From Bradyrhizobium sp. CCGUVB1N3 (GTDB lineage Bacteria > Pseudomonadota > Alphaproteobacteria > Rhizobiales > Xanthobacteraceae), in assembly GCF_024199925.1 (NCBI RefSeq), contig NZ_JANADR010000001.1:7195501-7259500 (forward strand): a stretch of DNA of 64,000 nt, read 5' to 3'. Positions 42,026 through 64,000 of this stretch are shown here, in pieces (within the stretch, counting starts at the first letter, position 1; every line of letters starts with the position of its first letter). Both the position numbers and the translations under genes were made by a program. The notes below the pieces were generated by a model that saw nothing but the letters and a program-made list of their open reading frames with translations, did not search any database and was not told the DNA's origin.

Positions 42026-42034
42026 AGACTGAAC

Positions 42035-43007: not shown

Positions 43008-43104
43008 CTTGTTCGTCCGGCGCGCTTGACGGCCGCGGAATTCGTCCTCCATAGGTGATGGAAACGGTCGCGAGGCGGCCGCGATTTGTCTGGAGAATTT
43101 GCCC

Positions 43105-47400: not shown

Positions 47401-47414
47401 ATCGCCCGCTTCGA

Positions 47415-50333
47415 TCAATCGTCGAGCGCCATTGCCAGCACGCGCGCGACGTGAACGGCTTCTCGGGCGGCCCCGTCCCAGATCTGATGGCGACAACTTG
47501 TGCCGTCTGCGACGACGAGATCCTCAGGGTCTGCCTGACGAACGGCGGGGAAAAGAGACAATTCGCCCATGGCCATCGAGATATCGATCGTGGCTGCCGC
47601 GTAGCCGAATGCCCCGGACATGCCGCAACAACTGGACTCGATAGGCTTGACGTCGAGTCCCGGGACAGCCCGCAACGTTTTCTCCACCGCTCCCATCGCG
47701 TCGAACGCTTTTTGATGGCAATGACCATGCAGATGCACGGTCCGTCCGCCTTGGTCCCGGAAAGACAAGGTTGTAGCACCTGTGGCGAGATCGTCGGCCA
47801 GCAATTCTTCGATCAGCCTTGCCGCCTTGGCCAGCGGCGCAACGTCTTCCTTCGGCAGGAGGGCGGCAAACTCGTCACGGAACGTCATCAGGCATGAGGG
47901 TTCAAGCCCCACGATCCTCGCTCCCCTCGACACGAATGGCGCCAGCGCTTCCGCAGTTCGTCTCGCTTCGATGCGGGCCTCCTCAACAAGGCCTGCCGAA
48001 AGGAACGTTCGTCCGCAGCACAATGGCCGACCGCCGTCCCTTGCGGTGACATGATGCATCCGGTATCCGCCGGCCTGCAGCACTTTTTCAGCAGCTTCCA
48101 AGTTCTCGCGTTCGAAGTACCGATTGAAGGTGTCGCCGAAGAGCACGACGTCGCGCCCGTCTCCCACGACGTCCGATGGGGCAGCTGCACGGCGCCTGTC
48201 GCGCCAAGGGGAACGCCACACAGGCAATGTGCGTCGGGCGGAAAACCCCAGCCAGCGTTCGGTTAGCCACGCCAAGCCAGGTATGCGGTCGCGCAAATTC
48301 ATGAAAGGGGCGAGCTTTGCAGCAAGTGGTGCATAGCGCGGCAAATATGCGATCAGCCACTCCTTGAGCGGCAGACCATGCCGACCATGGTAGTGGTGCA
48401 GAAATTCGATTTTCATCCGCGCCATGTCGACGCCCGTGGGGCAGTCACGCTTGCAACCCTTGCAGGAGACGCAAAGGTCCAGTGTTTCCTTCATCTCTGG
48501 AGAGGTTAGGGCTTCCGGGCCAAGTTGTCCGGAGATCGCGAGCCGCAACGTATTTGCCCGGCCTCGGGTGAGGTGTTGCTCTTGCCGCGTGACGCGCCAG
48601 GACGGACACATCGTGCCTCCCGCCATCTTCCGGCATGTACCGTTGTTGTTGCACATCTCGACGGCGCCGCCGAAGCCGCCCCATTCTGACCAGTCGAGAG
48701 CTGTCTTCGCGGGAGCAGAGGCGCGGTATTCCGGCGGAAAGCGCATCAAGCTGCGATCGTCCATGTGATAAGGCCGGACGATCTTGCCTGGATTGAACCG
48801 GTTCCCGGGGTCGAACGCGTCCTTGACCTCCTCGAAGGCGCGTGTGAGCGATCCGCCAAACATCGGCTCGATGAAATCTGAGCGGGAGATGCCATCTCCG
48901 TGTTCGCCTGAGAACGACCCTTTGAATCGTCTCACAAGGTCGCAAGCTTCTTCGGCGATGGCTCGCATCGCCTTGACGCCCTCTTCGGTCTTCATGTTCA
49001 GGATGGGACGAACATGGAGGCAGCCGACGGACGCGTGGGCATACCAGGTTCCGCGCGTGCCGTGCTTCTCGAATAGGGCCGTCACCGCATCCGTGTAATC
49101 GGCCAGGTGCTCCAGAGGAACGGCACAATCTTCGATGAACGAGACGGGTTTCCCATCCCCTTTCATCGACATCATGATGTTCAGACAGGCTTCTCGAACT
49201 TCCCAAACCCGCTTCTGTCGCTCTGGTTCGATGACCTCGACCACCGCATCCGCAAAGCCGTGGTCGGCCATGCATTGATCCAGTCGTTTCAGATCTTTTT
49301 TCAGTTCCGAGAGATTATCTCCAGCGAACTCGACCAGGAGGAGGCAGTTCGGTTTTCCTCTCGTGATATCGTTGAGAGTGCGGATGAACAGCGGGATGTC
49401 GGCGCCGAGAACCAGAACGTTGTTGTCGACGAGCTCGACCGCCACGGGATTTAGTGCGACGAGATGCTGGGTCGTCTCCATGGCAGCCCGAAAGCTCGGG
49501 AAGTGGCAGACGCCCATGACGCGATGCCGGGGCAGCGGCGAGAGGAGCAGTGTCGCTTCCGTCGTGATTGCAAGAGTGCCTTCCGAGCCGACCAGCAGGT
49601 GGGAGAGGTTGGGCCGGACCGCCAGCAATTCATCGAGGTTATAGCCGCCGACGCGACGCTGGACCTTCGGAAAGATGGTCTCGATCTCGGATCGATGGCG
49701 CTCGGCCAGCGCGAGCATCCTGTTCATCAAATCGCGGGTGCGCGAAGATGAGTTATCGCCGATCGGTCGATCACTTAGCGTGAAGGATTCGCCGTCATTG
49801 AACATGGCCTTGAGTGCGATGACATTGTCGACGGTCTTGCCATATCTGAGCGAGCGCGCTCCGGAAGAATTGTTGCCCGTCATCCCGCCGATCGTGCAGC
49901 GGCTCGCCGTCGACGGCTCGACGGGGAAGAACAGGCCGTCTTTCTTGACGAATGTGTTGAGTGCCTCGAGAACGATCCCGGGGGCGACTGAGATCGAACG
50001 GGCCGTGGGATCGTACTCGCGGATCGCGTTGAAGTAGCGGCTCAGGTCGAGCACGAGGCCATTGCCGATCGGTTGGCCATTCTGAGAAGTGCCGCCGCCA
50101 CGCGCGATCACGGGGATTCCGTGTTCGGCTGCAATTGTCAGTGCCGCCGCGATGTCTGCCTCGGTTTTTGGGAAGGCGACGCCTTGGGGCATGATCTGAT
50201 AGATCGAGGCGTCCGTCGCATACCGTCCGCGGGTGAATGCATCGAAGCGGACCTCACCCTCCAATGCGCGAGAGAGCTGTCTCTCGAAGGCGACATCGTG
50301 CCGGTAGGGGCCTGCATATGCGGTCTGGTTCAT
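47415..50333 (-). CDS. FAD-linked and Fe-S 2-hydroxyacid dehydrogenase-like oxidoreductase (972 aa)
   Basis: The protein fuses a PCMH-type FAD domain (about 45-230, with PVIARGGGTSQNGQPIGNG), a FAD-linked oxidase C-terminal domain (HASVGCLHVRPILN, GEHGDGISRSDF), a 4Fe-4S-type region (CVSCKGCKRDCPTGVDM) and CCG domains (PLCCGRTF, SSCCGMSG). Fused enzymes of this kind oxidise D-lactate, glycolate or D-2-hydroxyglutarate and feed electrons to the respiratory chain. It is preceded by a GntR gene in the same direction. A D-2-hydroxy acid substrate is inferred. Confidence 0.9.
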   Translation of the reverse strand: MNQTAYAGPYRHDVAFERQLSRALEGEVRFDAFTRGRYATDASIYQIMPQGVAFPKTEADIAAALTIAAEHGIPVIARGGGTSQNGQPIGNGLVLDLSRYFNAIREYDPTARSISVAPGIVLEALNTFVKKDGLFFPVEPSTASRCTIGGMTGNNSSGARSLRYGKTVDNVIALKAMFNDGESFTLSDRPIGDNSSSRTRDLMNRMLALAERHRSEIETIFPKVQRRVGGYNLDELLAVRPNLSHLLVGSEGTLAITTEATLLLSPLPRHRVMGVCHFPSFRAAMETTQHLVALNPVAVELVDNNVLVLGADIPLFIRTLNDITRGKPNCLLLVEFAGDNLSELKKDLKRLDQCMADHGFADAVVEVIEPERQKRVWEVREACLNIMMSMKGDGKPVSFIEDCAVPLEHLADYTDAVTALFEKHGTRGTWYAHASVGCLHVRPILNMKTEEGVKAMRAIAEEACDLVRRFKGSFSGEHGDGISRSDFIEPMFGGSLTRAFEEVKDAFDPGNRFNPGKIVRPYHMDDRSLMRFPPEYRASAPAKTALDWSEWGGFGGAVEMCNNNGTCRKMAGGTMCPSWRVTRQEQHLTRGRANTLRLAISGQLGPEALTSPEMKETLDLCVSCKGCKRDCPTGVDMARMKIEFLHHYHGRHGLPLKEWLIAYLPRYAPLAAKLAPFMNLRDRIPGLAWLTERWLGFSARRTLPVWRSPWRDRRRAAAPSDVVGDGRDVVLFGDTFNRYFERENLEAAEKVLQAGGYRMHHVTARDGGRPLCCGRTFLSAGLVEEARIEARRTAEALAPFVSRGARIVGLEPSCLMTFRDEFAALLPKEDVAPLAKAARLIEELLADDLATGATTLSFRDQGGRTVHLHGHCHQKAFDAMGAVEKTLRAVPGLDVKPIESSCCGMSGAFGYAAATIDISMAMGELSLFPAVRQADPEDLVVADGTSCRHQIWDGAAREAVHVARVLAMALDD

Positions 50334-50509
50334 GTCGCGCCTTCATCATGAAGCCCAGAGACGAAGGAATGGGTGAATCACCGACGGGAATGGGCCCTGT
50401 CTGGCCTCGGTCCCCCATCCGCACTGCCCGTGTCCGTCCCTGTTGGGTTCGGTACCGCGCCGGCTTACGATCAGTTGGCGCGTCGGCAGGACACTAGAAC
50501 GAAACAATT

Positions 50510-50519
50510 TTGCATGCAA
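50510..50519. promoter_or_regulatory. Palindrome TTGCATGCAA, candidate GntR operator
   Basis: This perfect 10-base palindrome lies 177 bases before the dehydrogenase start, between it and the GntR gene, within an AT-rich stretch. FadR/GntR-type regulators bind TTG-N4-CAA-like sites. Confidence 0.45.
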
Positions 50520-50591
50520 TATTGAATTGGATATCGCAGAATATGCCGACACAATGCCGGATGTGGGCCAAGTGCTCGACAGGAGGGCGCC

Positions 50592-51296
50592 TTAAGTCTG
50601 TCCCTGCGCGGCCTTTCGCTTGTTTCTGAGGTGAGCGAACAGAATGTTGGCCAATTCGCCTCCGGATCGGCGGCGGAGCGCGTCCAGGATGGCCTCGTGT
50701 TCGCGCATGGCCTCCCCCCAGCGATCGCGATCTCTGGCCAGATTGGCCGTATAGCGAACCCGGCGGATCCGGCCAGACAGGTTGGCGTAAGTCGCCGTTA
50801 GGCTGGGATTTCGAGCGGCCGCCAGGATCTTTTGGTGGATGGCCTGATTGCTCTGGAAGTATTCGTGCATGTCCCGCCGAAGATAATCTCGGTACATATC
50901 GTGGTGAATCTGCTCAATTTCGGCGATTTCCTCGTCCGTTATGCGCTCGCAGGCCAGTCGACCTGCCAGCGCCTCGAGACCTCCCATGAGGTCGAAGAGG
51001 TCCCGGATGTCGTCGGAGCTCAAGGCGCGGATGCGCGCGCCGCGATTGGGGAGCAGTTCGATCAGCCCTTCGGCGGCCAGCACCTTCAGGGCTTCGCGGA
51101 GGGGAGTCCGCGAAATGTTGAACTGCTCGCATAGGGTTCGTTCGGGAACGCGTGCTCCGTCGGCGAGATTGCCTTCGACGATGAAATCCCGAAGCTTGCC
51201 AAGCAGTTCGTCGTGCAACGAGGCGGGGCCTTTGTCGTCCCCGTGAGCTGCTGGGGTTGTCTGATCTTCGGATGGTTCAAGCGCTGTGTCGGTCAT
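50592..51296 (-). CDS. GntR-family regulator with FCD domain
   Basis: The 234-residue protein has a winged HTH (about 28-95, DGARVPERTLCEQFNISRTPLREALKVLAAEGLIELL) and an all-helical FCD ligand domain with EALAGRLACERI and metal-site histidines (H131, H153 region, H196-like). FCD regulators bind small organic acids. It lies between the dehydrogenase gene and the divergent aminotransferase gene, so it probably controls both. Confidence 0.92.
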   Translation of the reverse strand: MTDTALEPSEDQTTPAAHGDDKGPASLHDELLGKLRDFIVEGNLADGARVPERTLCEQFNISRTPLREALKVLAAEGLIELLPNRGARIRALSSDDIRDLFDLMGGLEALAGRLACERITDEEIAEIEQIHHDMYRDYLRRDMHEYFQSNQAIHQKILAAARNPSLTATYANLSGRIRRVRYTANLARDRDRWGEAMREHEAILDALRRRSGGELANILFAHLRNKRKAAQGQT

Positions 51297-51345
51297 CTCT
51301 TATCGGTAAGCCCGCCGGGAGAAGTTGTCGAGGCTCCATAGTCAT

Positions 51346-51362
51346 ATTTTGAATTCCAAAAT
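51346..51362. promoter_or_regulatory. Near-palindrome upstream of the aminotransferase gene
   Basis: ATTTTGAATTCCAAAAT is a near-perfect inverted repeat between the divergent GntR and aminotransferase starts. TTCCAAAA recurs at 51372. It is a candidate operator for the GntR protein. Confidence 0.45.
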
Positions 51363-51445
51363 TGGATTGACTTCCAAAAAAATGAATGCAAAAGAGAGCG
51401 GGGCGCACCGCTGGTCAGCGCTTAGCCCATTTGGAGGAAGTCATC

Positions 51446-52627
51446 ATGCAAGGTCGCCACTTTTTGCAGATTCCCGGACCTAGCCCGATACCCGACCGCA
51501 TCCTGCGCGCGATCGCGATGCCCATTATCGATCATCGGAGTGCCGAATTCGCCGAGTTGGGGAATTGCGTGCTCGATGGCTGCAAGGACGTGTTCAAGAC
51601 GAAGCAGCCCGTCATTATTTTCCCCTCGTCCGGCACCGGTGCCTGGGAAGCTGCCATCGTCAATACCTTGTCGCCGCGCGACAAGGTTCTCATGGTCGAG
51701 ACGGGGCATTTCGCAACGCTTTGGAAACAGATCGCTACGCGTTTCGGTCTTGAGGTCGACTTCGTCCCCGGCGACTGGCGCCATGGCGCCGATCCAGCAG
51801 CAATCGAGGCAAAATTGCTGGAGGACAAATCCCACAGCATCAAAGCGGTGATGGTTGTCCATAACGAGACCTCCACGGGAGCGACCAGCCGGATCGCCGA
51901 GATCCGACAGTCTATCGATGCAGCGAAGCATCCGGCATTGTTCATGGTCGACACCATCTCCTCGCTCGCCTCAGTCGACTACCGCCACGATGAATGGAAG
52001 GTTGACGTGACGGTCTCCGGATCTCAGAAGGGATTGATGCTTCCTCCTGGATTGGGCTTCAACGCGATTTCTGAAAAGGCGTTGACTGCGTCGAAGGACA
52101 ACAAGATGCCCCGGTCCTTTTGGGACTGGCAGGAGATGCTGAAGCACAACAATGCAGGGTTCTTTCCGTACACTCCTGCCACCAACTTGCTTTTCGGGCT
52201 GAAAGAAGCGCTCGAGATGCTGAAAGAGGAGGGGTTCGACAACGTCTTCGCCCGACACAAGCGTCTCGCGACGGCGTGTCGCGCCGCGGTCGAAGCGTGG
52301 GGCCTTGAAGTGCTCTGTCAAAATCCGGCCGAGCAGTCGCCCGTTCTGACCGGGGTCTTGATGCCACCGGGCCATGACGCCGATCGCTTTCGCAAGATCA
52401 CGCTCGAGAAGTACAACGTCTCGCTCGGCTCCGGACTGGGCAAGGTCGCCGGCAAGGTCTTCCGCATCGGTCATCTCGGCGAATGTAACGAGCTCAGCTT
52501 GCTCGGAGCGTTATCCGGAGTGGAGATGGGTCTGACGGCTGCTGGGGTGCCTCACCGCGGAGAAGGTGTTGATGCCGCGATGGCCGTTTTCGAGGACAAG
52601 CAGCGGATCAATCGAGCGCAGCAATAG
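51446..52627 (+). CDS. PLP-dependent aminotransferase, serine-glyoxylate type
   Basis: The 393-residue class V aminotransferase follows the pattern of serine-glyoxylate aminotransferase: IPGPSPIPDRIL, FPSSGTGAWEAAIVNTL, VVHNETSTGA, D169 in FMVDTISS and the PLP lysine K195 in SGSQKG. It should pass an amino group to glyoxylate or a similar keto acid. GGAGGAAG precedes the ATG. Close relatives use serine or aspartate as donors, so the exact pair is open. Context links it to the hydroxyacid dehydrogenase. Confidence 0.88.
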   Translation: MQGRHFLQIPGPSPIPDRILRAIAMPIIDHRSAEFAELGNCVLDGCKDVFKTKQPVIIFPSSGTGAWEAAIVNTLSPRDKVLMVETGHFATLWKQIATRFGLEVDFVPGDWRHGADPAAIEAKLLEDKSHSIKAVMVVHNETSTGATSRIAEIRQSIDAAKHPALFMVDTISSLASVDYRHDEWKVDVTVSGSQKGLMLPPGLGFNAISEKALTASKDNKMPRSFWDWQEMLKHNNAGFFPYTPATNLLFGLKEALEMLKEEGFDNVFARHKRLATACRAAVEAWGLEVLCQNPAEQSPVLTGVLMPPGHDADRFRKITLEKYNVSLGSGLGKVAGKVFRIGHLGECNELSLLGALSGVEMGLTAAGVPHRGEGVDAAMAVFEDKQRINRAQQ

Positions 52628-52890
52628 TCGTCGGCTTGCGGCAGAGATCCCTGCGCTCCTTTCCATGATCGAACGGGATCTCGCAAGGCGGCTTTGTGAC
52701 CTGCGGCCACATTCTGCAACATTCTTGCAAGGTGGGAGCGCATTTGGATGCGTTTCCCACCGTCAAACGTAATACCGATAGGTTCGGATAAGCAGTGCGC
52801 TGGGTCATTGAGAAATCGAATGCAGACGATCCTCGGTGCTCAAGCTCAGTTTCCTGGACAGCCGCGTTTGTCTCCTTTCCTCCCAAACTT
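52628..52890. other. Non-coding stretch after the aminotransferase gene
   Basis: No supported gene. Short frames on both strands lack start signals and family likeness. A clear terminator ends the stretch. Confidence 0.5.
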
Positions 52891-52917
52891 GCCGGGGCTT
52901 GTGTCCCGGCTTTTTTT
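52891..52917 (+). terminator. Rho-independent terminator
   Basis: GCCGGG and CCCGGC enclose a loop and are followed by seven T. It is the end of the aminotransferase transcript or of an unseen short transcript. Confidence 0.75.
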
Positions 52918-53038
52918 GGGGGGAGCGATCAAGGTTCGGCGGCCACAGGTCATTGAGTGGCCAGCAGCCAGCTAATCCGAAACCGCTTTCAAACGGCGGC
53001 TGCGATCACTCGGCTCGGATCTGAAAGATCCGAGGGAG

Positions 53039-54667
53039 ATGAGTTGGACAAATTTCCTATCGAGCGGTGTCGGTGCTGACATGAGAAATTTCGAAACGCC
53101 GGGACGTTCCGAAGCATTCGGCGTCAACGGAATGGCCGCGACCCCGCACCCGCTAGCCACGCTGGCCGCAATCGACGTGCTCCGCGAAGGCGGCAACGCC
53201 ATAGATGCAGCTGTGGCGGCTGGAGCTGTGCTTGCTGTCGTTGAGCCAACCCAGACCGGCGTGGGTGGAGACTGCTTCGTTCTGCTGAAGCGGGAAGGGC
53301 AGCCGATCATCGCGCTCAACGGATCCGGAGCGGCGCCGTCGGCCGCGAGTGTCGAACGGCTAACAGAAGCCGGCGTAACGACGCTCGACCCTGAGAGTGC
53401 GCACGCGGTTACTGTTCCAGGTGCCGTGCGAACGTGGGCCCGGCTGGCCGAGGATCATGGAACGCGTGATCTCGCGCGTCTCCTTTCACCCGCCATTGCC
53501 GCTGCGGAAAATGGCTATCCTGTCGCTGAGCGGCTGGCGAGGGACTGGGGGAGGCAGGTGCCGAAGCTCTCTCGTCTGGCCGCTACGACTTCGGTCTTTC
53601 TCCCCCGCGGCGAAACGCCGGCCCCCGGCGATTTGCACACGCAGCCTATGCTGGCCCGCACCCTTCGGGATGTCGCCGCAAAGGGGGCCGACGTGTTTTA
53701 CGAGGGATGGATTGCAGAGAGCATCGTAAAGGCGCTGCGCTCGCTTGGTGGCTTTCATACCGTCGAGGATTTTGCTGCCTTCCGGCCGCGCTACGAGAGG
53801 CCGATATCCGCGTCCTACCGTGGTTTCGAACTGTGGGAATGTCCGCCGAATGGCACAGGCGTTGCTGCTTTGGCCATGGCAAGTCTGCTCGACCGTTACA
53901 ATGTCGCCGACTTCGCTCCGGTATCGGTGGAGCGCTACCATCTCTTGGCCGAGATCGCGCGCATTGGCTATGCGGAGCGCGACGCCTTCGTCGCCGATCC
54001 CGATACCGGGCATGTGCCAGTCGAGCGCATGACCTCATCAGCCCGCGCCGACATCCTCTCTCGCCGGATATCATTGAGCGGGCGGCTGACCGACATCACG
54101 CCGATCACAATGCCGGAACACAAAGATACGGTGTTCCTGTCAGTCGTGGACAAAGATCGTACCGCGGTTTCATTCATCAACTCCGTCTTCGATGATTTCG
54201 GCAGCGGCATCGTGGCACCCGAATGCGGGGTCTTGCTGCACAACCGCGGCTTCGGCTTTGTGCTCGAGCCCGGCCATCCCAACGTACTCGCGGGTGGCAA
54301 GCGACCAATGCACACCATCCTGCCTGCCATGCTGACGCGAGGCGGCGAATGCGTCTTATCGTTCGGCGTGACAGGAGGGCATTTCCAGCCCATAGGACAG
54401 ATCCAGGTCCTGTCGAACCTTCTTGATCACAAAATGTCGGTGCAGGAAGCGATCGACCAACCGCGTATCTTCGCACGCGGCGACGTGCTGGACGTCGAAG
54501 CGACCGTTCCGGCCAAGATTGTCGAGGGGCTTCGTGCGTTGGGGCATCTTCCTACGCGAGTGTCAAATCCACTCGGAACAGCCCAGGCGATATGGATCGA
54601 CCGCAAACGTGGACTTCTCAGAGGTGGGGCTGATTTCCGTCGGGATGGCATCGCCCTTGGCTATTGA
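53039..54667 (+). CDS. Gamma-glutamyltransferase-family Ntn hydrolase without signal peptide
   Basis: The 542-residue protein has GGT family landmarks: PHPLATLAAIDVLREGGNAIDAAVA, VGGDCFVLL, and the predicted self-cleavage Thr T364 in KDTVFLSVVDKDRTAVSF, then GGKRPMHTILPAML. GGT-type enzymes split gamma-glutamyl amides or acylate related substrates. No signal sequence is present, so it is likely cytoplasmic, unlike periplasmic GGTs. ATG 53081 is an alternative start. Its place beside an amine-oxidase operon suggests catabolism of an imported gamma-glutamyl compound. Confidence 0.88.
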   Translation: MSWTNFLSSGVGADMRNFETPGRSEAFGVNGMAATPHPLATLAAIDVLREGGNAIDAAVAAGAVLAVVEPTQTGVGGDCFVLLKREGQPIIALNGSGAAPSAASVERLTEAGVTTLDPESAHAVTVPGAVRTWARLAEDHGTRDLARLLSPAIAAAENGYPVAERLARDWGRQVPKLSRLAATTSVFLPRGETPAPGDLHTQPMLARTLRDVAAKGADVFYEGWIAESIVKALRSLGGFHTVEDFAAFRPRYERPISASYRGFELWECPPNGTGVAALAMASLLDRYNVADFAPVSVERYHLLAEIARIGYAERDAFVADPDTGHVPVERMTSSARADILSRRISLSGRLTDITPITMPEHKDTVFLSVVDKDRTAVSFINSVFDDFGSGIVAPECGVLLHNRGFGFVLEPGHPNVLAGGKRPMHTILPAMLTRGGECVLSFGVTGGHFQPIGQIQVLSNLLDHKMSVQEAIDQPRIFARGDVLDVEATVPAKIVEGLRALGHLPTRVSNPLGTAQAIWIDRKRGLLRGGADFRRDGIALGY

Positions 54668-54861
54668 GATCAGATGTTTTCCGCTGCGGGTGCAACCCCG
54701 GTGTAATGTTTGAGTTGATGCTTCGATAGGGAGATTGCGCCGGAGTTTAGGGGCGCCGACCAGCGCCGCCTCTGAGCTTGTGCGAAATTCGGTCGCGTTC
54801 GTTTGACACGAACTTCCAGGCACGCGGTCGCATTCGACACGACGCGTAGAACAGGGTGGCC

Positions 54862-56724
54862 TCAATCGGCTTCGTTCACCCTGACCAGATGCCCCTCCGA
54901 CACTTCCCGGTACTTTCTTGCAGGTGGTTCATATCCGATCGGTCTGACCGGGCTCCTCAATTCGTCACCGGCGATGCCCCGCCGGATCCTGCGCCGCGCG
55001 GGATCCGGCACCGGTACCGCCGCCATGAGCTTTCTTGTGTAGGGGTGTTGCGGATTTTCGAACACAGCCGCGCGCGGCCCGATCTCAACGATCTCGCCGA
55101 GATACATGACCGCCACACGGTGGCTCACCCGCTCAACAACGGCCATGTCGTGGGAGATGAAGAGGAAAGCCAAATTGAGGCTCTGCTGCAAATCGAGCAA
55201 CAGGTTGCAGACCTGCGCCTTGATGGACACGTCGAGTGCCGACACCGCTTCATCGGCAACGATGACTTTCGGATCCAGCATGAGCGCACGGGCGATCGCG
55301 ATGCGCTGGCGTTGCCCGCCGGAGAATTCATGAGGAAACCGCCGCATCATATCTGGCGACAACCCGACCTTTTCCATCAAGACTGCAGCCTTGTCGCGAG
55401 CTTGTACGCCTGAGCCAAGCCGATGTTGAATAAACGGCTCGACCAGCGCCGATCCGATGCTCAGGCGCGGGTTGAGCGAGGCATACGGATCCTGGAACAC
55501 CATCTGGATCGAGCGTCGCATTTTGCGAAGTGCGGAATGGTCAAGCTTCATCACGTCCTGACCATCAACCACCACACTTCCGCCCGTTGGCTTCACCAGT
55601 CGCGTAATGGATCTGCCGGCGGTGGACTTGCCGCATCCCGACTCCCCTACCAGCGACAGCGTCTCGCCCTCGAGCAGATTGAAAGACACGTTTTCAACTG
55701 CATGTACCGCCCCGGCTTTGCGGCCGAACAGCCCGGAGCGGATATTGAAGCGCATCGTCAGGTCTTTGACGTCGAGGATCGGCGCCTTGCTTCTAGCGAC
55801 TGTATCGGCGACGTCGGGAAGCACCTGTTGTTCGCCAGTCTTCGTGTCCAGGATCGGGAAACGCAGCGGCAGCTTCCGATCGCCCATCGAACCGAGGCGC
55901 GGTACGGCCGAAAGCAGCGCGCGCGTGTATGGATGCTTCCCGCGGTGGAAGATGTCGGCCGTCGCGCCGGTTTCGACCGCATCTCCACGAAACATGACGA
56001 TGGTTCTGTCAGCCAATTCCGCCACGACACCCATATCGTGAGTAATGAAGAGGACCGACGTTCCTTCCTCTTCCTGTAGGGTCTTGATCAGGTCGAGAAT
56101 CTGGCCTTGGATGGTCACATCCAGCGCTGTCGTCGGCTCGTCGGCGATCAGGAGTTTCGGCTTCGACGCGAGCGCCATCGCGATCATCACGCGCTGGCGC
56201 ATGCCTCCGGAAAATTGATGCGGATATTCGTCGTATCGACCCTTGGCGTTCGGAATCTGAACCTTTTCAAGCAGCCTGAGGACTTCGGTTCTGGCGTCAG
56301 CCTTGGAAATATCCTTATGGACAGTGAGTGCTTCGGCGATCTGCTTGCCGATGGGGATGATCGGGTTGAGCGAGGTCATCGGCTCCTGGAAGATCATCGA
56401 AATCTCGTTGCCGCGGATCTGGCGCATGTCCTCTTCCGGAAGAGACAGCAGATTTCTTCCGGACAGCAGAACCTTGCCGTCCACGCGGCTTGATCGGGGC
56501 GCCAGCAAGCGCATGATCGAGAGGGAAGTAACGGATTTGCCCGAACCTGATTCACCGACGATCGCCATCGTCTCGCGTGGCGCGATGTCGAATGAAATAT
56601 TGCGGATGACGGTTTTCCAGCCATCATCGACCTTGAACGAGGTCGTGAGATCGCAAACGGAAAGGACGGGGGGCGCGGATGTTGCAATTTGCCCGGCGGC
56701 GGCCTCTTGAATGGGCGACGTCAT
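54862..56724 (-). CDS. Peptide-type ABC transporter ATP-binding protein, double domain
   Basis: The 620-residue protein carries two DppD/DppF-like ATPase modules: GESGSGKS near residue 55, [26 protein letters not shown], then GESGCGKST and [15 protein letters not shown]. It energises the import of an oligopeptide- or opine-like substrate through the two preceding permeases. Its ATG overlaps the permease stop by 4 bases. It is the last gene of a seven-gene operon. Confidence 0.93.
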
Positions 56725-57599
56725 TGCGCGCTCCTTGTTTTCGGGTCGATCGCGTCGCGCAGCGCGTCACCAAGAATGTTCAGGGCGAGTACGGTCAGAA
56801 GGATGGCCAGCGAGGGAAAGACAACCAGCCACCAGGCACTCAGGATGTTCTCGAAACCCTCACGGATCATGCCACCCCATGTCGCGGTGGGCGGTCGAAC
56901 GCCGAGCCCGATGAACGCCAATGACGCTTCGGTGCGAATGGCGGACGCCATCCAAAGCGAAGCGACAACGACAATGTCGGACAGGATGTTCGGAAGAATA
57001 TGAACCCCCATGATCCGGGACGGCGAAAAGCCAAGCGAGCGGCCTGCCTCAACGAATTCGCGCCGCTTCACAGCGATCGTCGGAGCTCGCGCCACACGGG
57101 CAAATGGAGCGGTTTCGGTGATGGCAATCGCAATAATCAGGTTTTCGAAGCTGGCGCCGAGCATTGCTGCGACCATCAGACCCAACAGCAGCGTCGGAAA
57201 CGACAGCATCACGTCGACGATACCCATCACGATCTGATCGAACACACCGCCGATATAGCCCGCCAGGATCCCGAATGCAGACCCGATCACCATTGCGATC
57301 AGTACGGAAAAGAAACCGATCGACAGCGATATGCGTGCTCCGTAGAGCAGCCGCGAGAGGACATCGCGTCCGTAGCTGTCCGTTCCCAGCCAGAACTGGG
57401 CGGAAGGCGGGCTTAGTCGATGAAGAATATTCTGCTTCAGCGGATTGAAGGGTGAGACGAGCGGCGCGAAAACGGCGAGCAGAATGATCAGTGTCAGAAG
57501 GCCGATGCCGAGCCACGAAAAGCGGTTGCGACGGAATGCCGTCAAGACCGGGTTCGGCTGCCGCTTCGGTGCGGCCTGAGAAACAATAGTGTCGGTCAT
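56721..57599 (-). CDS. Peptide-type ABC transporter permease, DppC type
   Basis: The 292-residue permease has an N-terminal helix, the FWLGTDSYGRDVLSRLLYGARISL segment and the EAA loop (EAGRSLGFSPSRIMGVHILPN). It forms the channel with the upstream DppB-type permease; both its ends overlap neighbours by 4 bases. Confidence 0.93.
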   Translation of the reverse strand: MTDTIVSQAAPKRQPNPVLTAFRRNRFSWLGIGLLTLIILLAVFAPLVSPFNPLKQNILHRLSPPSAQFWLGTDSYGRDVLSRLLYGARISLSIGFFSVLIAMVIGSAFGILAGYIGGVFDQIVMGIVDVMLSFPTLLLGLMVAAMLGASFENLIIAIAITETAPFARVARAPTIAVKRREFVEAGRSLGFSPSRIMGVHILPNILSDIVVVASLWMASAIRTEASLAFIGLGVRPPTATWGGMIREGFENILSAWWLVVFPSLAILLTVLALNILGDALRDAIDPKTRSAQ

Positions 57600-58537
57600 T
57601 GGGCAAGACCCACTCTGGGATCGACGATGGCGTAGATGAGATCGGTGACCGTGTTCACGATGATGACAAAGGTTGCGAAGACCACCATCAGTCCTTGAAG
57701 CATCGTGTAATCACGGGATTGCAGAGCACCCAGGATGAGCTTGCCGAGCCCCGGACGTGTGAAAACGATCTCGGTGAGCACAGAATTTCCGATGAGGGTC
57801 CCGAAATAGAGGCCTACCACCGTCACGATGGGTATAAGAGCATTGCCAAGAGCATGCCGAAAAATGAGGCTTCGCGGGCGAACACCTTTTGCACGGGCGG
57901 TGCGAATATAGTCTTCGCCCATGACATCGAGCATCGAGGAGCGTGTTACGCGCGCGATATAAGCGGTCATGATCAGCCCAAGGTTCAGGGCGGGGAGCAA
58001 TAGATTCCGAAGATGATCGATAGGGTCGCTGGTGGCGCGGCTCATGACGGGCAGCCAATGCAGCCAGACTGCAAACGCCAAAAGCATCAGGATCGCCGAG
58101 ACGAAGCCGGGGAAGGATAGGCCTACAAGCGATAGAATACGGCTGAGATAGTCGGGCCACTGGTCTCGACGCACAGCGGCTGTCACGCCTAACGGAAGAC
58201 CGAGTAGTGTTCCGATCAGCATCGCTGCTGCGGCGAGTTCAAGTGTATAAGGAAGGACGAGGGTTACCTCTTCGAGCACCGTGCGACCGCTCACCATCGA
58301 GCGACCGAAATTTCCGGTCAGCATGTCCGACAAAAAATGTAGGTATTGGACCCCGATCGGTTGGTCGAGGCCTAGCTGCACCCTCAGCGCCTGAAGCGCC
58401 GCGCCGCTTGCTCTATCACCGAGCATGGCAATTGCGGCGTCGCCGGGAACAAGGCGCACCAGTACAAAAACCATGGTGAGCATGGCGATCAATGTGGGGA
58501 TCGCGAGCAAAAGTCTTCGGATCGCATAACCTATCAT
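57596..58537 (-). CDS. Peptide-type ABC transporter permease, DppB type
   Basis: The 313-residue permease begins MIGYAIRRLLLAIPTLIAML and has the EAA loop (RTARAKGVRPRSLIFRHALGNALIPI). It is coupled to the upstream amine-oxidase gene by a 4-base overlap, which ties transport and oxidation together. Confidence 0.93.
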   Translation of the reverse strand: MIGYAIRRLLLAIPTLIAMLTMVFVLVRLVPGDAAIAMLGDRASGAALQALRVQLGLDQPIGVQYLHFLSDMLTGNFGRSMVSGRTVLEEVTLVLPYTLELAAAAMLIGTLLGLPLGVTAAVRRDQWPDYLSRILSLVGLSFPGFVSAILMLLAFAVWLHWLPVMSRATSDPIDHLRNLLLPALNLGLIMTAYIARVTRSSMLDVMGEDYIRTARAKGVRPRSLIFRHALGNALIPIVTVVGLYFGTLIGNSVLTEIVFTRPGLGKLILGALQSRDYTMLQGLMVVFATFVIIVNTVTDLIYAIVDPRVGLAQ

Positions 58538-59655
58538 GCGGCCACCCTTTCTATGGAGACGCGGCTTGCGCAGAAGGCATCGAGATTGTGATTGGTTCGA
58601 CCCTGACAGATCAAGTCAGCGACGACCCGTCCGACGGATGGAACGAGCTGAAATCCATGTCCGGAAAAGCCGAAGACATGTATCAAGCCCTCGACCTGCT
58701 GCGAAAAGCCGATGACTGGACGGTGGTCGGAGGTCATCGCTTCCATACCCACCCATGTTCTGACGATCCGTACGTCTTCCAGCTCGGGAAATACGCGGAT
58801 CGCTGCTTGCACCGATGCTGCCAGCGCGACGACGTCGACGGTGGCCGATTGCCGATCTGCTGCCAGTTTCCCTTGAGAACCGCCTCCAATGAGAAATGTC
58901 CCCTGAGAGGTCTGTTTCAACGACAGCTTCTTGCCGAATGACGCTACGACGGGCTTGATTCTGGGGGCGGAACGTTCCGTCACCACCATCATAGAGGTGC
59001 GGATCGCATGCTGCAGCGGATCACCGGCAAGTTCAGAAACATGATCCGCCCAGGCACCGGCCGCGTTGACGACAGTCTCAGCCTCGAAGACGCCACGCGA
59101 CGTCTCGGCTCGCCAACCGGTCGCGGATCGGGTCAAGGCCGTCACGAGGCATTCTTCGGTGATATTTACGCCGGCCCGGATGGCTGCATCTCGAAAGGCC
59201 CTGATGGTTCGATGCGGATCGGCCGAGCCGTCGCTGGACACCCATGCGCCACCCAGGCAATGGGCGGATATGCCTGGCACAAAGCTTCGTATTTCATCGG
59301 GACCGACCATCTGCTCATGGAAATGGCCCATGGCTTGAAGCCGCTTGATACGCATCTCAATCTTCGTCAGCGACGGCTCGTCTTCGGCAACTTGCAATTG
59401 GCCGCAGGCGACGAAGCCACAATCGTCGCCGACGAGACGCTCCATGTCCTGCCAGTCCCTGGCAGCCTCGAGGCTGAGAGGCAGTTCGGCAACGTCCCGA
59501 CCGAGGGTGCGCACACCGGCGGCTGTTGCGCCCGAAGCATGTCGTCCGAGAAAGTGTCGCTCGACGAGCTGAACAGTCGCACCTCGCCGCGCGGCGTGAA
59601 GGGCGGCGGAAAGGCCGTGCAGACCGCCTCCTATAATCAGGACGTCGGCGCTCAT
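58534..59655 (-). CDS. FAD-dependent amine oxidoreductase (DAO family), second copy
   Basis: The 373-residue protein starts with the FAD fold VLIIGGGLHGLSAALHAARRG and keeps the DAO-family pattern (VVNAAGAWADHVSELAG, RTWVGMEAMTSDHRPVIGFS, GFSGHGFQLVPSVGR). Such enzymes oxidise secondary amines or D-amino acids, as in sarcosine or glycine oxidases. It overlaps the HcnB-like gene by 4 bases. Two DAO-type proteins in one operon are unusual; this one may act on the product of the first. Confidence 0.9.
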   Translation of the reverse strand: MSADVLIIGGGLHGLSAALHAARRGATVQLVERHFLGRHASGATAAGVRTLGRDVAELPLSLEAARDWQDMERLVGDDCGFVACGQLQVAEDEPSLTKIEMRIKRLQAMGHFHEQMVGPDEIRSFVPGISAHCLGGAWVSSDGSADPHRTIRAFRDAAIRAGVNITEECLVTALTRSATGWRAETSRGVFEAETVVNAAGAWADHVSELAGDPLQHAIRTSMMVVTERSAPRIKPVVASFGKKLSLKQTSQGTFLIGGGSQGKLAADRQSATVDVVALAASVQAAIRVFPELEDVRIVRTWVGMEAMTSDHRPVIGFSQQVEGLIHVFGFSGHGFQLVPSVGRVVADLICQGRTNHNLDAFCASRVSIERVAA

Positions 59656-61031
59656 GTCGCGCCCTCCGCTTTTTCCAACGATGCGATCTCTCCAAGAGTG
59701 ACCGGTTTCAACGGCGGACGAATATGGAAGAAACGGACCTCGCTGACCGGAAGATCATGGACCTCTGCGAGTAGCGCCTGAACCGTGTAGCCGCACTGGC
59801 GCCCTTGGCAGGGCCCCATTCCGCAACGTGTCGCAGCCTTTACCGCGCTGGGATCGGCGGGGCAGGTGCGTGCGGCGGCTCGAATAGCGCCGGCTGTAAC
59901 TTCCTCGCAGCGACACGCGATGACGTCATCGGCGAGCCGGGTCCGCGGAGGGGGATACATGGCATCGAGGAACGGTCGCAATGCGAGCGCTCGCTCACGG
60001 CGTCGATCGAGAGGCACCCTCTGTCGAAGCCTGTCTGTTTCGGAGGAAATCCCAAGCCGGCCAGCGATGCCGAGTGCAGCGATCTCTCCGGAAATGGTCG
60101 CGGCCAGCCAGCCGCCGATTCCGCTCGCATCACCGGCCACGAAAAGACTTTTGCGGCTGGTTTCTCCCCACCGGTCGAGCTTCGCCGCCAGATATCCCTG
60201 TTCGTCGTTCCAGTGATGGGCGCAGTCCAACGCCAGCGTTTCGTGAATGCGCGGCACGACACCCTCGTGAACCAACAGCACGTCCGCTTCGACGCGATGG
60301 CGTTTTCCCTCCACCTCCCAGGTCAGATGCTCGAGGCGCTCGTTGCCTTCGGCTCGCAAGTCTGAGAAGCCCCGCACCATCACGCCGCTGCGCTTGATCC
60401 CGCGAAGCCATCGCAGGCCTTTGAGCAAGCCGTCAAAGTCACGCCAGGCCCCGGGGAGACGGCTCAAGGCGGACAGGCGGGGAGGGGTCGAAGTGTCGAG
60501 AAAGCCAGCAATGCGACCCCCGAGGTCAAGAAGCTGGGTTGCATAGAGGAGCGGCAACGGCCCGGCCCCGGCAATCCAGACTTTGCCCTCGGGCAACATC
60601 CCTCCGGATTTGAGAAGGATTTGCGCCGCCCCCACGGTCATCACGCCCGGCAGGGTCCAGCCTGCGAACGGCACTGGCCGTTCCTGGGCTCCGTTGGCAA
60701 GCAATACCGCGCGAGCTGCGATACGCCGGGCTTTACCCTCGGCAGTCAGAAAAAGATTCCAGCCGTCTTCGATCTGCCAGACCTGTGTCGACGGCATGTA
60801 TTCAGCGCCGGACGCCCGAAAGGCAGCCGCGAGTGCCTGTCCCTTCTGATAGTCTTTGCCGAGCGCCGGGAAAACAGGACTACTGGTATTCCGCTCGATC
60901 CCTCTGAATATCTGTCCGCCCGGCGAAGGTTGTTCGTCGATGACAACTACGGAAGCGCCGAGCTCGCGCAGGCGAATAGCAGCGCTCATACCGGCTGGAC
61001 CCGCGCCGACGATCGCGACATCGTAACTCAT
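59652..61031 (-). CDS. HcnB/opine-oxidase-like FAD/NAD(P)-binding oxidoreductase
   Basis: The 459-residue protein has GAGPAGMSAAIRLRELG at the N-terminus, a second nucleotide-binding fold, and a C-terminal BFD-like 2Fe-2S region (ACRCEEVTAGAIRAA, then GMGPCQGRQCG). It matches the alpha subunit of opine oxidases and HcnB. With the preceding 2Fe-2S protein and DAO-family protein it should form a membrane-linked or soluble amine dehydrogenase. It is coupled to both neighbours. Confidence 0.9.
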   Translation of the reverse strand: MSYDVAIVGAGPAGMSAAIRLRELGASVVVIDEQPSPGGQIFRGIERNTSSPVFPALGKDYQKGQALAAAFRASGAEYMPSTQVWQIEDGWNLFLTAEGKARRIAARAVLLANGAQERPVPFAGWTLPGVMTVGAAQILLKSGGMLPEGKVWIAGAGPLPLLYATQLLDLGGRIAGFLDTSTPPRLSALSRLPGAWRDFDGLLKGLRWLRGIKRSGVMVRGFSDLRAEGNERLEHLTWEVEGKRHRVEADVLLVHEGVVPRIHETLALDCAHHWNDEQGYLAAKLDRWGETSRKSLFVAGDASGIGGWLAATISGEIAALGIAGRLGISSETDRLRQRVPLDRRRERALALRPFLDAMYPPPRTRLADDVIACRCEEVTAGAIRAAARTCPADPSAVKAATRCGMGPCQGRQCGYTVQALLAEVHDLPVSEVRFFHIRPPLKPVTLGEIASLEKAEGAT

Positions 61032-61327
61032 CGTGATATTTCCCGCGGCCCGCGCTGGCTTTCAATTCGCATCCCGGGTCGGACCGGAACGAGACATCCT
61101 TGAGTGGAAGCAATTCCGTCCACGATCGCCAGACACTCGAAGCAAACGCCCATTTGACAGTAAGGCAGCCTTGGCGTCCCGCCGACCGGCGACCTACGGC
61201 CCGCACCGGGAACGCGCAGAAGCACGCTGGCAACCGTCTCGCCGTCCCAGGCGGGCGTCTCCACGCCATTCACGAGCACGGTCATGTCGGACCGTTTGCC
61301 GAGCTGTTCACGCACACTTTTGAACAT
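61028..61327 (-). CDS. Small 2Fe-2S protein, HcnA/opine-oxidase gamma type
   Basis: From ATG 61327, preceded by GGAAGA, the 99-residue product has the Fer2_4 cysteine pattern C57, C62, C65, C78 (LPYCQMGVCFECLAIVDG, TQGCLVPV). It carries electrons between the two larger subunits. Its first 20 bases overlap the end of the upstream DAO gene, so translation is coupled. Further upstream in-frame ATGs (61339) are less likely. Confidence 0.88.
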   Translation of the reverse strand: MFKSVREQLGKRSDMTVLVNGVETPAWDGETVASVLLRVPGAGRRSPVGGTPRLPYCQMGVCFECLAIVDGIASTQGCLVPVRPGMRIESQRGPREISR

Positions 61328-62429
61328 CGAATCTTCCATTTGAAAAAGCGGCCAGGTCGGTCGACAGCCTTCCTTCAAGCATTGCTGGAGCGACGATCGC
61401 AGCGTGAACCGCCGCAAGCGTCACCCCTGAGTGGCAGGCGGCAGCAAAGAGACCGGGATGGGCTGCGGATTCGGCGTAGATCGGAGAACCATCGGGAGGC
61501 ATGACTCGAAAGCCGCTCCATTGACGGACCAGCTGCGCCGACGCCAGTGCCGGAATAATCCGTGTTGCCCGAAGGGCGAGCGTCGTCGCCGATGCAACGG
61601 TTACCCCCCGATCGGTGGCGTCTTCCTTTGTCGCGCCGATCATGACGGTACCGTCGGCCGTCTGTCGCAAGCCACTGCCGGGATAAGGCAGGAGTGGCTG
61701 AAGCCGTTCGGTGACGAGAAGCTGACCGCGCTCGGAGCGCAGCGGGATTTTGAAGCCGATAGGATCGGTCAGGGCAGGCGTCGCGAGACCTGCGGCAACC
61801 ACAACGCGCGGCGCGGCATAGGTGCCAAGAGCCGCTTTCACGGTAAATCCACTCGTTCCGGGCTCGATCGATTCCACGGTGTTGCGAAAAAGGATCTTTC
61901 CACCTGCGGCGACTATGCCGCGCTGGAGGGCGGCCAGAAGCTGCAATGGGTTTACGTGACCATCGGCCTCACAATAACTGGCGCCGACAACCTCCGGACC
62001 GAAGCCGACAGCCGGCATCATTCGTTCGAGCTCGCGGCGATCGACCATTCGCGTGTCGTTCCGCGGCACGTAGTTGTGCGTCCGCTTATTGAGCGCCTCG
62101 CGAGCTTCGTATTCAGCCTCGCTCAAGCAATAAATCATGCCGCCAGGTCGGGAATAGTCGACCCGCATCCCGATCGTTTCGGTCAACTCGCGAAGAAAGG
62201 CCGGCCATAGGTCCGCACTTTGACGGCTCAGTTGATGGTAAGCGGGTGCGTTCGATCCCTTTCCCTGAACCCAAACAAGACCAAAATTAGCCCGTGCCGC
62301 GCGCATGTCCTGATCTTCTCCATCAAGGACGATGACTTCTTGTCCCCGCTTGGCGAATCCATAGGCAAGTGCGGCTCCAACAACGGCTCCCCCAATAACG
62401 ATAACGTCCGCGTCCACCCTCATCTCCAT
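61308..62429 (-). CDS. HcnC/opine-oxidase beta-like FAD-dependent oxidoreductase
   Basis: The 373-residue DAO-family protein has VIVIGGAVVGAALAYGFAKRG, the substrate-side segment CEADGHVNPLQLLAALQRG, VVVAAGLATPAL and GLFAAACHSGVTLAAVHAAIVAP. It is the catalytic beta-like subunit of the trio and is first in the operon, divergent from a LysR gene. Its substrate is likely an N-substituted amino acid, by family. The start may also be ATG 62423. Confidence 0.9.
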   Translation of the reverse strand: MEMRVDADVIVIGGAVVGAALAYGFAKRGQEVIVLDGEDQDMRAARANFGLVWVQGKGSNAPAYHQLSRQSADLWPAFLRELTETIGMRVDYSRPGGMIYCLSEAEYEAREALNKRTHNYVPRNDTRMVDRRELERMMPAVGFGPEVVGASYCEADGHVNPLQLLAALQRGIVAAGGKILFRNTVESIEPGTSGFTVKAALGTYAAPRVVVAAGLATPALTDPIGFKIPLRSERGQLLVTERLQPLLPYPGSGLRQTADGTVMIGATKEDATDRGVTVASATTLALRATRIIPALASAQLVRQWSGFRVMPPDGSPIYAESAAHPGLFAAACHSGVTLAAVHAAIVAPAMLEGRLSTDLAAFSNGRFDVQKCA

Positions 62430-62510
62430 TGGTTATTGTCGAGCCTAGGAAGCGAGTGTAGAAAGTCAAAGTCGTTTAGTTCGATGACGTATTCGCTAGG
62501 GTTATAACTA
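62430..62510. promoter_or_regulatory. Divergent promoter region of the oxidase operon and LysR gene
   Basis: This 81-base gap holds the palindrome GTTATAAC (62501-62508) just before the LysR ATG and AT-rich sequence around 62460-62505. LysR proteins usually bind such divergent gaps and regulate both sides. Confidence 0.5.
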
Positions 62511-63413
62511 ATGAGGGATCCAAGCCTGAGGCAACTTGAGGCACTCATGGCTGTCGTCGAAAGTGGCACCGTCAGCCGCGCTGCTGAGGTCCTAAGAATC
62601 TCGCAGCCAGCAGCAAGCAAGCTCATCCAGGATCTGGAAGCAGATACTGGGCTGCAGCTGTTCGAGCGCGAGAGTGGCCGACTGGTGCCGACCGGGCGCG
62701 GAATGCGTCTGTATGAAGAGGTCGAGCGCATTTTCGGCGGCGTGCACCAATTGGCTCGCGCCGTGGATGCAATCCGGCGCGAGGAGCATGGCCACCTGCT
62801 GATCGGCACTATGCCGGCATTGTCGGGCCCATTCATCACCCGCGTGGTTGCGGGATTCAAAGAGCGGCATCGGGATGTTTTTGTTTCCATCGAAGCTCGC
62901 AGCTCCCAGTTTCTGACGGAAGCCGTCCTGCTTCGTCGTGTCGATTTGGCTCTCGTCATCAGCGGCCTGGAACATTCGTCCGTTCAGGTCGACCGCGTAA
63001 AATGTCCGCCGGCCGTGGTGGCGCTCCCTCTGGGACACAGGCTTTCCGATCTGTCAGACCTGTCTCCGATCGATCTCAAGGATGAACCCTTCATCGCATT
63101 CGCGCCGACGGGAACGATGCGCAGCAAGGTCGATGCCGCCTTTGAAAGGTTCGGCCTGAGGCCAAACATCGCCATCGAGGCAACGACCGCCCCGAATGTC
63201 GCCGAGCTGGTTGCGGCCGGATTGGGCGTGACCGTAGCCGACCCTTTGGCCCTAGAGCACGTTGCCGGTCGGATCACATCAAGGCCGTTTACGCCGGTCA
63301 TCGACTTCGACTACGTGCTGATCCGTCCGATCCGTGCGAGAAAGAGCGATCTGGTCGCTGATTTCGCGGCAGAAGTACATGCCGCAGCAAAGACGCCAAA
63401 ACTCACAGCATAG
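62511..63413 (+). CDS. LysR-family transcriptional regulator
   Basis: The 300-residue protein has the N-terminal HTH (MRDPSLRQLEALMAVVESG, then TVSRAAEVLRISQPAASKLIQDLEADTGLQLFER) and a periplasmic-binding-like effector domain. It is divergent from the oxidase operon and ends 65 bases before the convergent binding-protein gene; it is the likely local activator. Confidence 0.93.
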   Translation: MRDPSLRQLEALMAVVESGTVSRAAEVLRISQPAASKLIQDLEADTGLQLFERESGRLVPTGRGMRLYEEVERIFGGVHQLARAVDAIRREEHGHLLIGTMPALSGPFITRVVAGFKERHRDVFVSIEARSSQFLTEAVLLRRVDLALVISGLEHSSVQVDRVKCPPAVVALPLGHRLSDLSDLSPIDLKDEPFIAFAPTGTMRSKVDAAFERFGLRPNIAIEATTAPNVAELVAAGLGVTVADPLALEHVAGRITSRPFTPVIDFDYVLIRPIRARKSDLVADFAAEVHAAAKTPKLTA

Positions 63414-63478
63414 AGAAAACTCGCCGACCTTGAGCAATATCGGAACTGCCTCCGGTCAGGTCAGTCGGGGAAAACCGG

Positions 63479-64000
63479 TCAGCGGTTGATCGTTGTTTGC
63501 TCGGTAATTGGGGGTGCCAGGTTCAAGGAGCCCTTGAGTTCGTAACCGTAGTTTAGACTTTTGCTATGGACCCAGACCTGCATCAGGCTGAACAGAGGCA
63601 CGCCGCACACCTGGTCGTAGATTTTCTTCTGAGCGGCGGACCAAAGTTTCAAACGTTCTTCGTCCGTCGTGGCTTTTCGCGCGGCCGTGATATCGGCATC
63701 GCCGGCGTCGCAATGTGCGAAGTTCGTCACCGCAGTGGGCTTTCCGATCGACGCATCCGAGTGGTAAAATTGGCTCAGATAGCTGTCTGCGACGGGGTAA
63801 CGGGCGGCGCCGTAAAAGACCACATCGCTCAGATCCTTGCGGATTTGTTCGTGATAGGTCGGATGATCAACGATCTGCATTTGCAGGTTGATCCCCGCTT
63901 CTGCCAACTGGGCCTGAATGACCTCCATGATAGGCTGCTGAGCGGAGTTGGATGAGACGACCGCCGACAAGGTTAAACCGTTCTTGAAGCCGGCCTCCGC
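63479..64000 (-). CDS. Peptide-type ABC transporter substrate-binding protein, 3' end only
   Basis: The open frame enters from beyond the window and ends at 63479; 173 residues are seen. The pattern AEAGFKNGLTLSAVVSSNS, then IMEVIQAQLAEAGINLQMQIVD and QVCGVPLFSLMQVWVHSK is the C-terminal lobe of family 5 binding proteins. It is the probable receptor for the permease and ATPase genes of the operon, encoded across the LysR gene. Confidence 0.9.
   Translation of the reverse strand, partial: AEAGFKNGLTLSAVVSSNSAQQPIMEVIQAQLAEAGINLQMQIVDHPTYHEQIRKDLSDVVFYGAARYPVADSYLSQFYHSDASIGKPTAVTNFAHCDAGDADITAARKATTDEERLKLWSAAQKKIYDQVCGVPLFSLMQVWVHSKSLNYGYELKGSLNLAPPITEQTTINR

Follow-up and report, generated by a model that had tools for sequence, protein, structure and literature searches.

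A 64,000-nucleotide stretch of the Bradyrhizobium sp. CCGUVB1N3 chromosome (the window; contig C1, positions 7195501–7259500 of a 10.44-Mb genome in three contigs) carries a string of seven overlapping genes which, together with a LysR-type regulator and a periplasmic binding protein, is by sequence a chromosomal copy of the sac operon known from succinamopine-type tumour-inducing (Ti) plasmids. The first-pass annotation of this DNA had described a new catabolic system; the nine genes are instead collinear with those of Ti plasmids and 78–94% identical to them at the protein level. Judged from these relatives, the operon very probably imports and oxidises an opine of the succinamopine/leucinopine type, using alternative beta subunits of one dehydrogenase under the control of SacR. 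The substrate had been left unnamed; its class can now be given, although the exact opine cannot with certainty.

Gene content and order, identity to the Ti-plasmid genes, purifying selection, a shared promoter element, and the genomic place were each observed directly here. In the window and its extension every named gene forms an open frame, and Pfam places every one in the family first proposed for it (for SacA, Pfam was run on the part within the window and the whole protein was compared with NCBIfam). As annotated earlier, the opine-oxidase-like trio stands in a single gene string with another DAO and the genes of a dedicated importer, the LysR and binding protein genes lying alongside, and the seven genes are joined by overlaps, five of the six junctions being a 4-base ATGA and the sixth 20 bases long. 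The binding protein gene is present as well, with the correction that only its 3′ third lies inside the window. The genes and their order (A-R-E-F-G-H-B-C-D, R being divergent from E) are those of the annotated regions of pTiEU6, pAtCFBP4996a, and pTiCFBP4996, which share an identical set of nine genes, order, and orientation. Each of these three reference plasmids gives one collinear 10.3-kb DNA match (54,871–54,877 to 65,137–65,139; 77.6–80.6% identity), extending up to 1,139 bases past the window end. Above 43 kb (match rows below that point were dropped from the plasmid comparison), the extended window has no match to the three plasmids outside the operon, and the only extra match is a 122-base cross-match inside it (L015). 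Amino acid identity to the reference plasmids is 94% for SacB, 92–93% for SacC, 88–89% for SacD, 86–88% for SacG, 85–87% for SacF, 83–88% for SacR, 81–84% for SacH, 80–88% for SacE, and 78–88% for SacA.

The nearest plasmid sequences to the window operon are Ti-type opine operons. A tblastn search with SacG against 72,556 plasmid records returned matches in 555 (34 of them at 80–90% identity), and the best 40 of the 555 all belong to Agrobacterium or Rhizobium; at least 80% of the stretch 54862–62529 is found in one place in 41 of the 72,556 records. When the genes are compared with those of pTiEU6 and pAtCFBP4996a, the ratio of nonsynonymous to synonymous substitution (dN/dS) lies between 0.035 and 0.094 in 18 of 18 cases, consistent with purifying selection and a maintained operon. 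The dS is at least 0.9, which argues against a recent copy of either plasmid; recent transfer from one of the two is accordingly disfavoured. In a tree of 63 SacE rows, SacE being the sole sac protein so placed, the window protein falls in a 13-row clade with the three reference plasmids (support 99/94) and pairs with row P0001 (100/99), and the plasmid copies are mixed with others whose origin is different or unknown. As to function, sacA–H and sacR of pTiEU6 have been assigned to import and catabolism of succinamopine and leucinopine, and strains with this plasmid are reported to degrade both, according to passages of PMC6733357.

Table 1. Features of the sac locus and its neighbour, in window numbering. 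DAO1 and DAO2, first and second DAO-family proteins; FAD, flavin adenine dinucleotide; NAD, nicotinamide adenine dinucleotide; Ntn, N-terminal nucleophile.
Feature	Position	Strand	Domains or remarks
sacE, type-1 beta (catalytic, FAD) subunit, DAO1	61308..62429	-	PF01266
sacF, gamma subunit, 2Fe-2S ferredoxin-like	61028..61327	-	PF13510
sacG, alpha subunit, NAD/FAD-fold oxidoreductase with BFD-type 2Fe-2S domain	59652..61031	-	PF07992, PF04324, PF17806
sacH, predicted type-2 beta subunit, DAO2, alternative catalytic subunit	58534..59655	-	PF01266
sacB, importer permease	57596..58537	-	PF00528
sacC, importer permease	56721..57599	-	PF00528, OppC_N
sacD, fused double ATPase of importer	54862..56724	-	two PF00005 stretches
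sacR, LysR-type regulator divergent from sacE	62511..63413	+	PF00126, PF03466
sacA, family-5 periplasmic binding protein, 523 amino acids	63479..65050 (beyond window end)	-	
putative SacR box, 42-base element in sacE–sacR intergenic space	62465..62506	-	twin upstream of sacA, 65093–65134
GGT-like Ntn hydrolase, neighbour, judged outside the system	53039..54667	+	PF01019, TIGR00066

Both promoters of the operon (sacE–sacR and sacA) contain, with equal spacing, a 42-base element of the form TATAAY-N6-GAATAC-N7-AANNNANCGACTTTGAY, in which 25 bases are specified. Since the element was derived from an alignment of both window promoters with their counterparts in relatives, the window matches by construction. 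No third site was found in the 10.4-Mb genome at up to three mismatches, and a backward-read control gave none. The element occurs at the same two places with zero to two mismatches on L014, L015, L016, and the Neorhizobium locus L019, the plasmid copies including two at sacA with two mismatches and one at sacE with one. The sacA promoter of L019, outside the derivation set, carries the element without mismatch; the L018 copy, likewise outside that set, is identical to the L017 copy, which was inside it. On the sacE side, no element was found at up to six mismatches on pTi6.2 (L017) or on the Agrobacterium vitis CG957 plasmid (L018). Other loci have one element each at six mismatches (L020 and L021) or at four (L106), and none was found on L022 or on L103–L105 and L158, stretches of only about 4.4 kb each. 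The element is offered as a candidate SacR box, through which SacR probably controls both transcription units, sacA and sacEFGHBCD.

Several motifs point to a flavin opine dehydrogenase. SacF shows the gamma-subunit motif C-x4-C-x2-C-x12-C from residue 57, within the pattern C-x4-C-x2-C-x11/12-C; the Arg-x-Trp motif for flavin mononucleotide is present in both beta subunits (at 302 in SacE and 299 in SacH). The best-scoring solved relative of SacE is the glycine oxidase 4ysh, and that of SacH is 1y56_B, deposited as sarcosine oxidase; we take 1y56 to be the archaeal proline dehydrogenase complex to which the study of OdhB1-C-A-B2 relates type-2 beta subunits. OdhB1-C-A-B2 of Bradyrhizobium japonicum yields separate AB1C and AB2C complexes, both active as octopine dehydrogenases, according to passages of PMC4575208. 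This pattern accounts for SacH, the “extra amine oxidase” that had been given the second of two amine oxidation steps: the preferred reading is that SacH serves one flavin opine dehydrogenase as an alternative catalytic beta subunit. The window operon thus resembles OdhB1-C-A-B2 of strain USDA110 (bll7193–bll7190) in pairing two alternative beta subunits with one alpha-gamma core, as that system is described in PMC4575208, and differs from it in being Ti-type and in having its own Opp-type importer. A second opine-dehydrogenase-like cluster of the order beta1-gamma-alpha-beta2 lies elsewhere in the genome (L099 7373–11352; C1:9.810–9.814 Mb); SacG, SacE, and SacH are 40%, 43%, and 41% identical between the two, and from its gene order the cluster at 9.81 Mb is possibly the counterpart of bll7193–bll7190.

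Two plasmids offer a natural comparison for the role of SacH. On pTi6.2 and the CG957 plasmid a sac operon is present in which only a C-terminal remnant is left of the second DAO: the sacG–sacB stretches (15377–15854 of L017 and 15377–15856 of L018) match the C-terminal part of SacH only, with remnants 59% identical over residues 299–373 and 52% over 268–373. The LEC region of pTi6.2, a leucinopine plasmid of Rhizobium rhododendri, has sacA, R, E, F, G, B, C, and D in this order at 75–90% identity, whereas sacH is whole in the window. R. rhododendri rho-6.2, the host of pTi6.2, consumed leucinopine, probably the D,L- form, from the medium in the experiments excerpted from PMC10410297. Because this host uses leucinopine without a whole sacH, and both opines are degraded with pTiEU6, which has both subunits, we infer that SacE suffices for leucinopine and that SacH widens the range. 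Window SacH is 49.6–49.7% identical to its matches in records NC_010929 and KX388536, which we take to be pTiBo542 and pTiChry5. The lec system of those plasmids (L,L-leucinopine/succinamopine) has a related importer and dehydrogenase but differs in that table 2 of PMC6733357 gives it no sacE counterpart.

By analogy with these relatives, transport, reaction, and subunit exchange would proceed as follows. SacA would bind a D,L-iminodiacid opine of the succinamopine/leucinopine type in the periplasm, and SacBCD would import it. The dehydrogenase would then oxidise the secondary amine, yielding 2-oxoglutarate together with asparagine or leucine as the L-amino acid, and the products would enter general metabolism; 2-oxoglutarate, the keto acid expected from passages of PMC6733357, replaces the glyoxylate of the first-pass annotation. 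A common alpha-gamma core (SacG-SacF) would combine with SacE in one enzyme and with SacH in another, and the substrate ranges of the two may differ. For the exact opine, the respective ranges of the two enzymes, and the regulation, this scheme is a matter of inference.

The binding protein is consistent with an opine substrate. MoaA binds mannopinic-type opines, and bacteria that degrade ethylenediaminetetraacetic acid (EDTA) do so with an importer and an iminodiacetate oxidase (eppABCD-idaA). The best-scoring solved relatives of SacA are 6tfq, 6tfs, and 6tfx (495 bits), of which 6TFX is listed as MoaA, from Rhizobium radiobacter, in an excerpt of PMC7312458. These data bear on the alternative that the operon serves another iminodiacid, either an opine of the octopine family or a compound from plants or soil, for instance a chelator resembling aminopolycarboxylates, which we regard as unlikely while granting it a modest chance. 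Divergence from pTiEU6 is greatest in SacA and SacE; sacG relatives at or below 54% occur, among the matches listed, in varied bacteria (e.g., Paracoccus, Pseudomonas, and Vibrio), and a SacE relative at 78% (P0009) was found on a 5.5-Mb contig named Chelatococcus asaccharovorans. SacD passes the cut-offs of seven NCBIfam models among the 25 shown, staphylopine, nickel, and peptide importers alike, so the family libraries give no consistent substrate name; the other sac proteins reach no cut-off among the NCBIfam matches listed. However, the whole operon, SacA included, matches the pTiEU6 operon, which adjoins the transferred DNA (T-DNA) with its succinamopine synthase gene, and SacA scores 495 bits against MoaA, while the EDTA-binding protein EppA is only 18.2% identical to MoaA in the table of PMC7312458 (a comparison of EppA with MoaA and not with SacA). 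The Ti match and the likeness of SacA to MoaA speak against an EDTA- or iminodiacetate-type system, which was considered because of the Opp-type importer and the DAO genes.

A number of observations weigh against assigning the window operon to succinamopine- or leucinopine-type opines. SacA (78%) and SacE (80%) are the least conserved proteins relative to pTiEU6, suggesting that the opine may differ, and the dS of at least 0.9 also counts here. The GxGxxG motif for FAD is present in SacG and SacH, but SacE has GGAVVG in place of a strict GxGxxG, a variant shared by SacE of the three reference plasmids and contained in 8 of 120 homologues. In SacG, C-x-C and C-x4-C (from residue 373) are 27 residues apart, compared with 15–20 in the alpha-subunit motif quoted from PMC4575208 (C-x-C-x15~20-C-x4-C); the spacing is also 27 in five of five sac relatives (pTiEU6, pAtCFBP4996a, pTiCFBP4996, pTi6.2, and L019), and 32 in this genome’s other opine-dehydrogenase-like cluster. 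In the same source AB1C is poorly active and AB2C has a Km for octopine of 19.5 mM with Cl2Ind, which implies that some members of the family may have a true substrate other than an opine. In the 81.4 kb examined around the window there is no match (E 1e-5 for all except sus) to any of six genes that accompany sac on pTiEU6, namely odh, sus, the asparaginase gene, mmgE, and two hydantoinase genes (hydantoinase/oxoprolinase); odh directly follows sacD in five plasmid loci (L014–L018) and in the Neorhizobium locus L019. Among the plasmids compared, tumour opines are known for pTiEU6 and pTi6.2 only, and we know of no opine data for pAtCFBP4996a, the closest plasmid. The opine type of pTiCFBP4996 is listed as unknown in an excerpt of PMC8756689, and the assignment of sac on pTiEU6 was itself made by sequence. 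As the role of odh in catabolism is described as not clarified in passages of PMC6733357, that gene was not treated as defining for the operon. The likeness to sac of the three reference plasmids comprises the nine genes, their order and orientation, the divergent sacR–sacE pair, and the promoter element, and the difference from pTiEU6, besides the accessory genes, is the chromosomal location and a convergent neighbour of another kind.

This neighbour is a gamma-glutamyltransferase (GGT)-like gene that converges with the operon across a gap of 194 bases, as previously annotated. It had been made part of a pathway in which a gamma-glutamyl conjugate is imported, glutamate is removed by the GGT-like enzyme, and two amine oxidations release glyoxylate for a nearby aminotransferase, a scheme we consider scarcely credible. 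The protein does pass the NCBIfam gamma-glutamyltransferase cut-off (TIGR00066; 367.9 versus 357.85 bits) and retains the catalytic threonine (position 391 of the Escherichia coli enzyme, here T364) and both glycines (G483 and G484), with T409 appearing as S382. However, all six E. coli residues checked of those that hold the gamma-glutamyl group are replaced (R114 by S96, N411 by F384, Q430 by R403, D433 by G406, S462 by H425, and, mildly, S463 by T426), and the best-scoring solved relative, 2nlz, is deposited as cephalosporin acylase. No signal-like hydrophobic N terminus was visible by eye (no signal-peptide program was used). The gene stands in a module of its own (window 47236–54677) of the order YdiJ-like dehydrogenase (47415–50333; 573 bits, cut-off 1350), GntR, BhcA-like aminotransferase, and GGT-like gene; the aminotransferase thus adjoins the GGT-like gene, although at 462 bits it falls under its cut-off of 650. 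This module is duplicated at about 5.08 Mb (approximately C1:5075386–5083891; L152 and L156) with 95–100% protein identity (GntR and the dehydrogenase part inside L152, 100%; aminotransferase, 98.8%; GGT-like, 95.5%) and DNA identity of 97–99% and 93%. It recurs at 91–95% in another genome of the genus, G128, which lacks a Ti-type sacG, and the GGT-like gene occurs without the other three module genes in two more (L153 of G095 and L154 of G171); all three of the other sampled genus genomes with a GGT-like protein at 91% or more are without Ti-type sacG. Conversely, a search of 85 sacG loci (80 from the genome-contig matches listed and five from plasmids; 3.4–41 kb, median 21 kb) for GGT relatives covering half the length at E 1e-15 found none, and no shared 42-base element lies near the GGT-like gene. 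Because the module is duplicated, occurs without Ti-type sac, and is absent from the sacG loci, and because the pocket is replaced, the GGT-like gene is judged a neighbour and not a partner of the sac operon. Of the substrate proposed earlier, the opine-like part probably stands and the gamma-glutamyl part is unsupported, and the aminotransferase belongs with the GGT module. In the second module copy, a 937-base stretch between the aminotransferase and GGT-like genes shares 99.9% identity with the IS5-family element found upstream of sacA.

The sac operon probably lies near one edge of a symbiosis island. The guanine plus cytosine (GC) content is 0.567–0.619 in 23 of 23 samples from 7.28–8.17 Mb, a low-GC region of about 0.9 Mb, and at least 0.619 in 15 of 17 samples elsewhere, the low exceptions being 0.592 at 6.90 Mb and 0.611 at 5.12 Mb. 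nodA (7.888 Mb) and nifH (7.965 and 7.988 Mb) are inside this region. An integrase-like gene (window 43828–45165; 86 bits against a cut-off of 434) is found where GC drops from about 0.64 to 0.57–0.60. The edge is placed by GC and this gene, as no tRNA was found in the window, including positions 41001–46000 beside the integrase-like gene. An opine synthase inside the island was considered and rejected: PF02317 matches the genome once, at 9.18 Mb and outside the region, in a protein 25% identical to sus of pTiEU6.

Within the genus, sacG has a match at E 1e-60 in 113 of 195 genomes, a sample drawn from a larger group, and the Ti type is found in this genome only; the best matches of the others are a 53–55% version in four genomes and a 39–45% version in 108 (for this last class, the beta1-gamma-alpha-beta2 order was checked in the present genome). 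Among 397 genomes of the order, no other has a sacG above 61%. The best sacG among the genome-contig matches listed, from which the source genome itself may be left out, is that of Neorhizobium galegae DS1978 (71%). SacE is, however, 97% identical in Bradyrhizobium sp. Ec3.3, indicating that members of the genus outside the sample carry Ti-type sac. This last match also counts against the operon being an inactive remnant of a horizontally acquired island, as do the nine open frames, the dN/dS values, and the retention of both promoter elements. An IS5-family transposase gene whose start is 245 bases away from the sacA copy of the shared element, together with the missing odh, would fit such decay, which we consider very improbable. 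Another cluster of the genome (L100 4464–13107; C1:157–166 kb) holds a SacA-like protein (53%), permeases (54–60%), ATPase-like pieces (55%), and DAO/Pyr_redox relatives (33%), and seems to be a further system for an iminodiacid or opine.

Rhizobial genes for opine uptake and opine dehydrogenases encoded on Bradyrhizobium chromosomes have already been published, as excerpts of PMC4575208, PMC3557214, and PMC4070871 attest; no earlier report that places a sac operon in Bradyrhizobium or within a symbiosis island was found in the open-licence literature, which leaves subscription journals mostly outside. A wider proposal, which we hold to be speculative and distinctly unlikely as a whole, is that a nodulating bradyrhizobium keeps sac as symbiosis-island cargo, that legume roots or nodules offer D,L-iminodiacid opines, or closely similar compounds, as a real nutrient without any involvement of Agrobacterium galls, and that Ti plasmids recruited an older operon of soil or rhizosphere; the interspersion of plasmid and other copies in the SacE tree is compatible with such an origin. 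For sac operons, the 42-base element supplies a candidate SacR binding site, and the locus is one more natural case of an operon with two beta subunits, suited to asking what the additional one does, alongside pTi6.2, which lost one and whose host uses leucinopine. If the proposed function holds, a legume symbiont may live on nutrients that a crown-gall pathogen makes plants produce, which would extend the opine-cheater idea to a gene set carried as symbiosis-island cargo.

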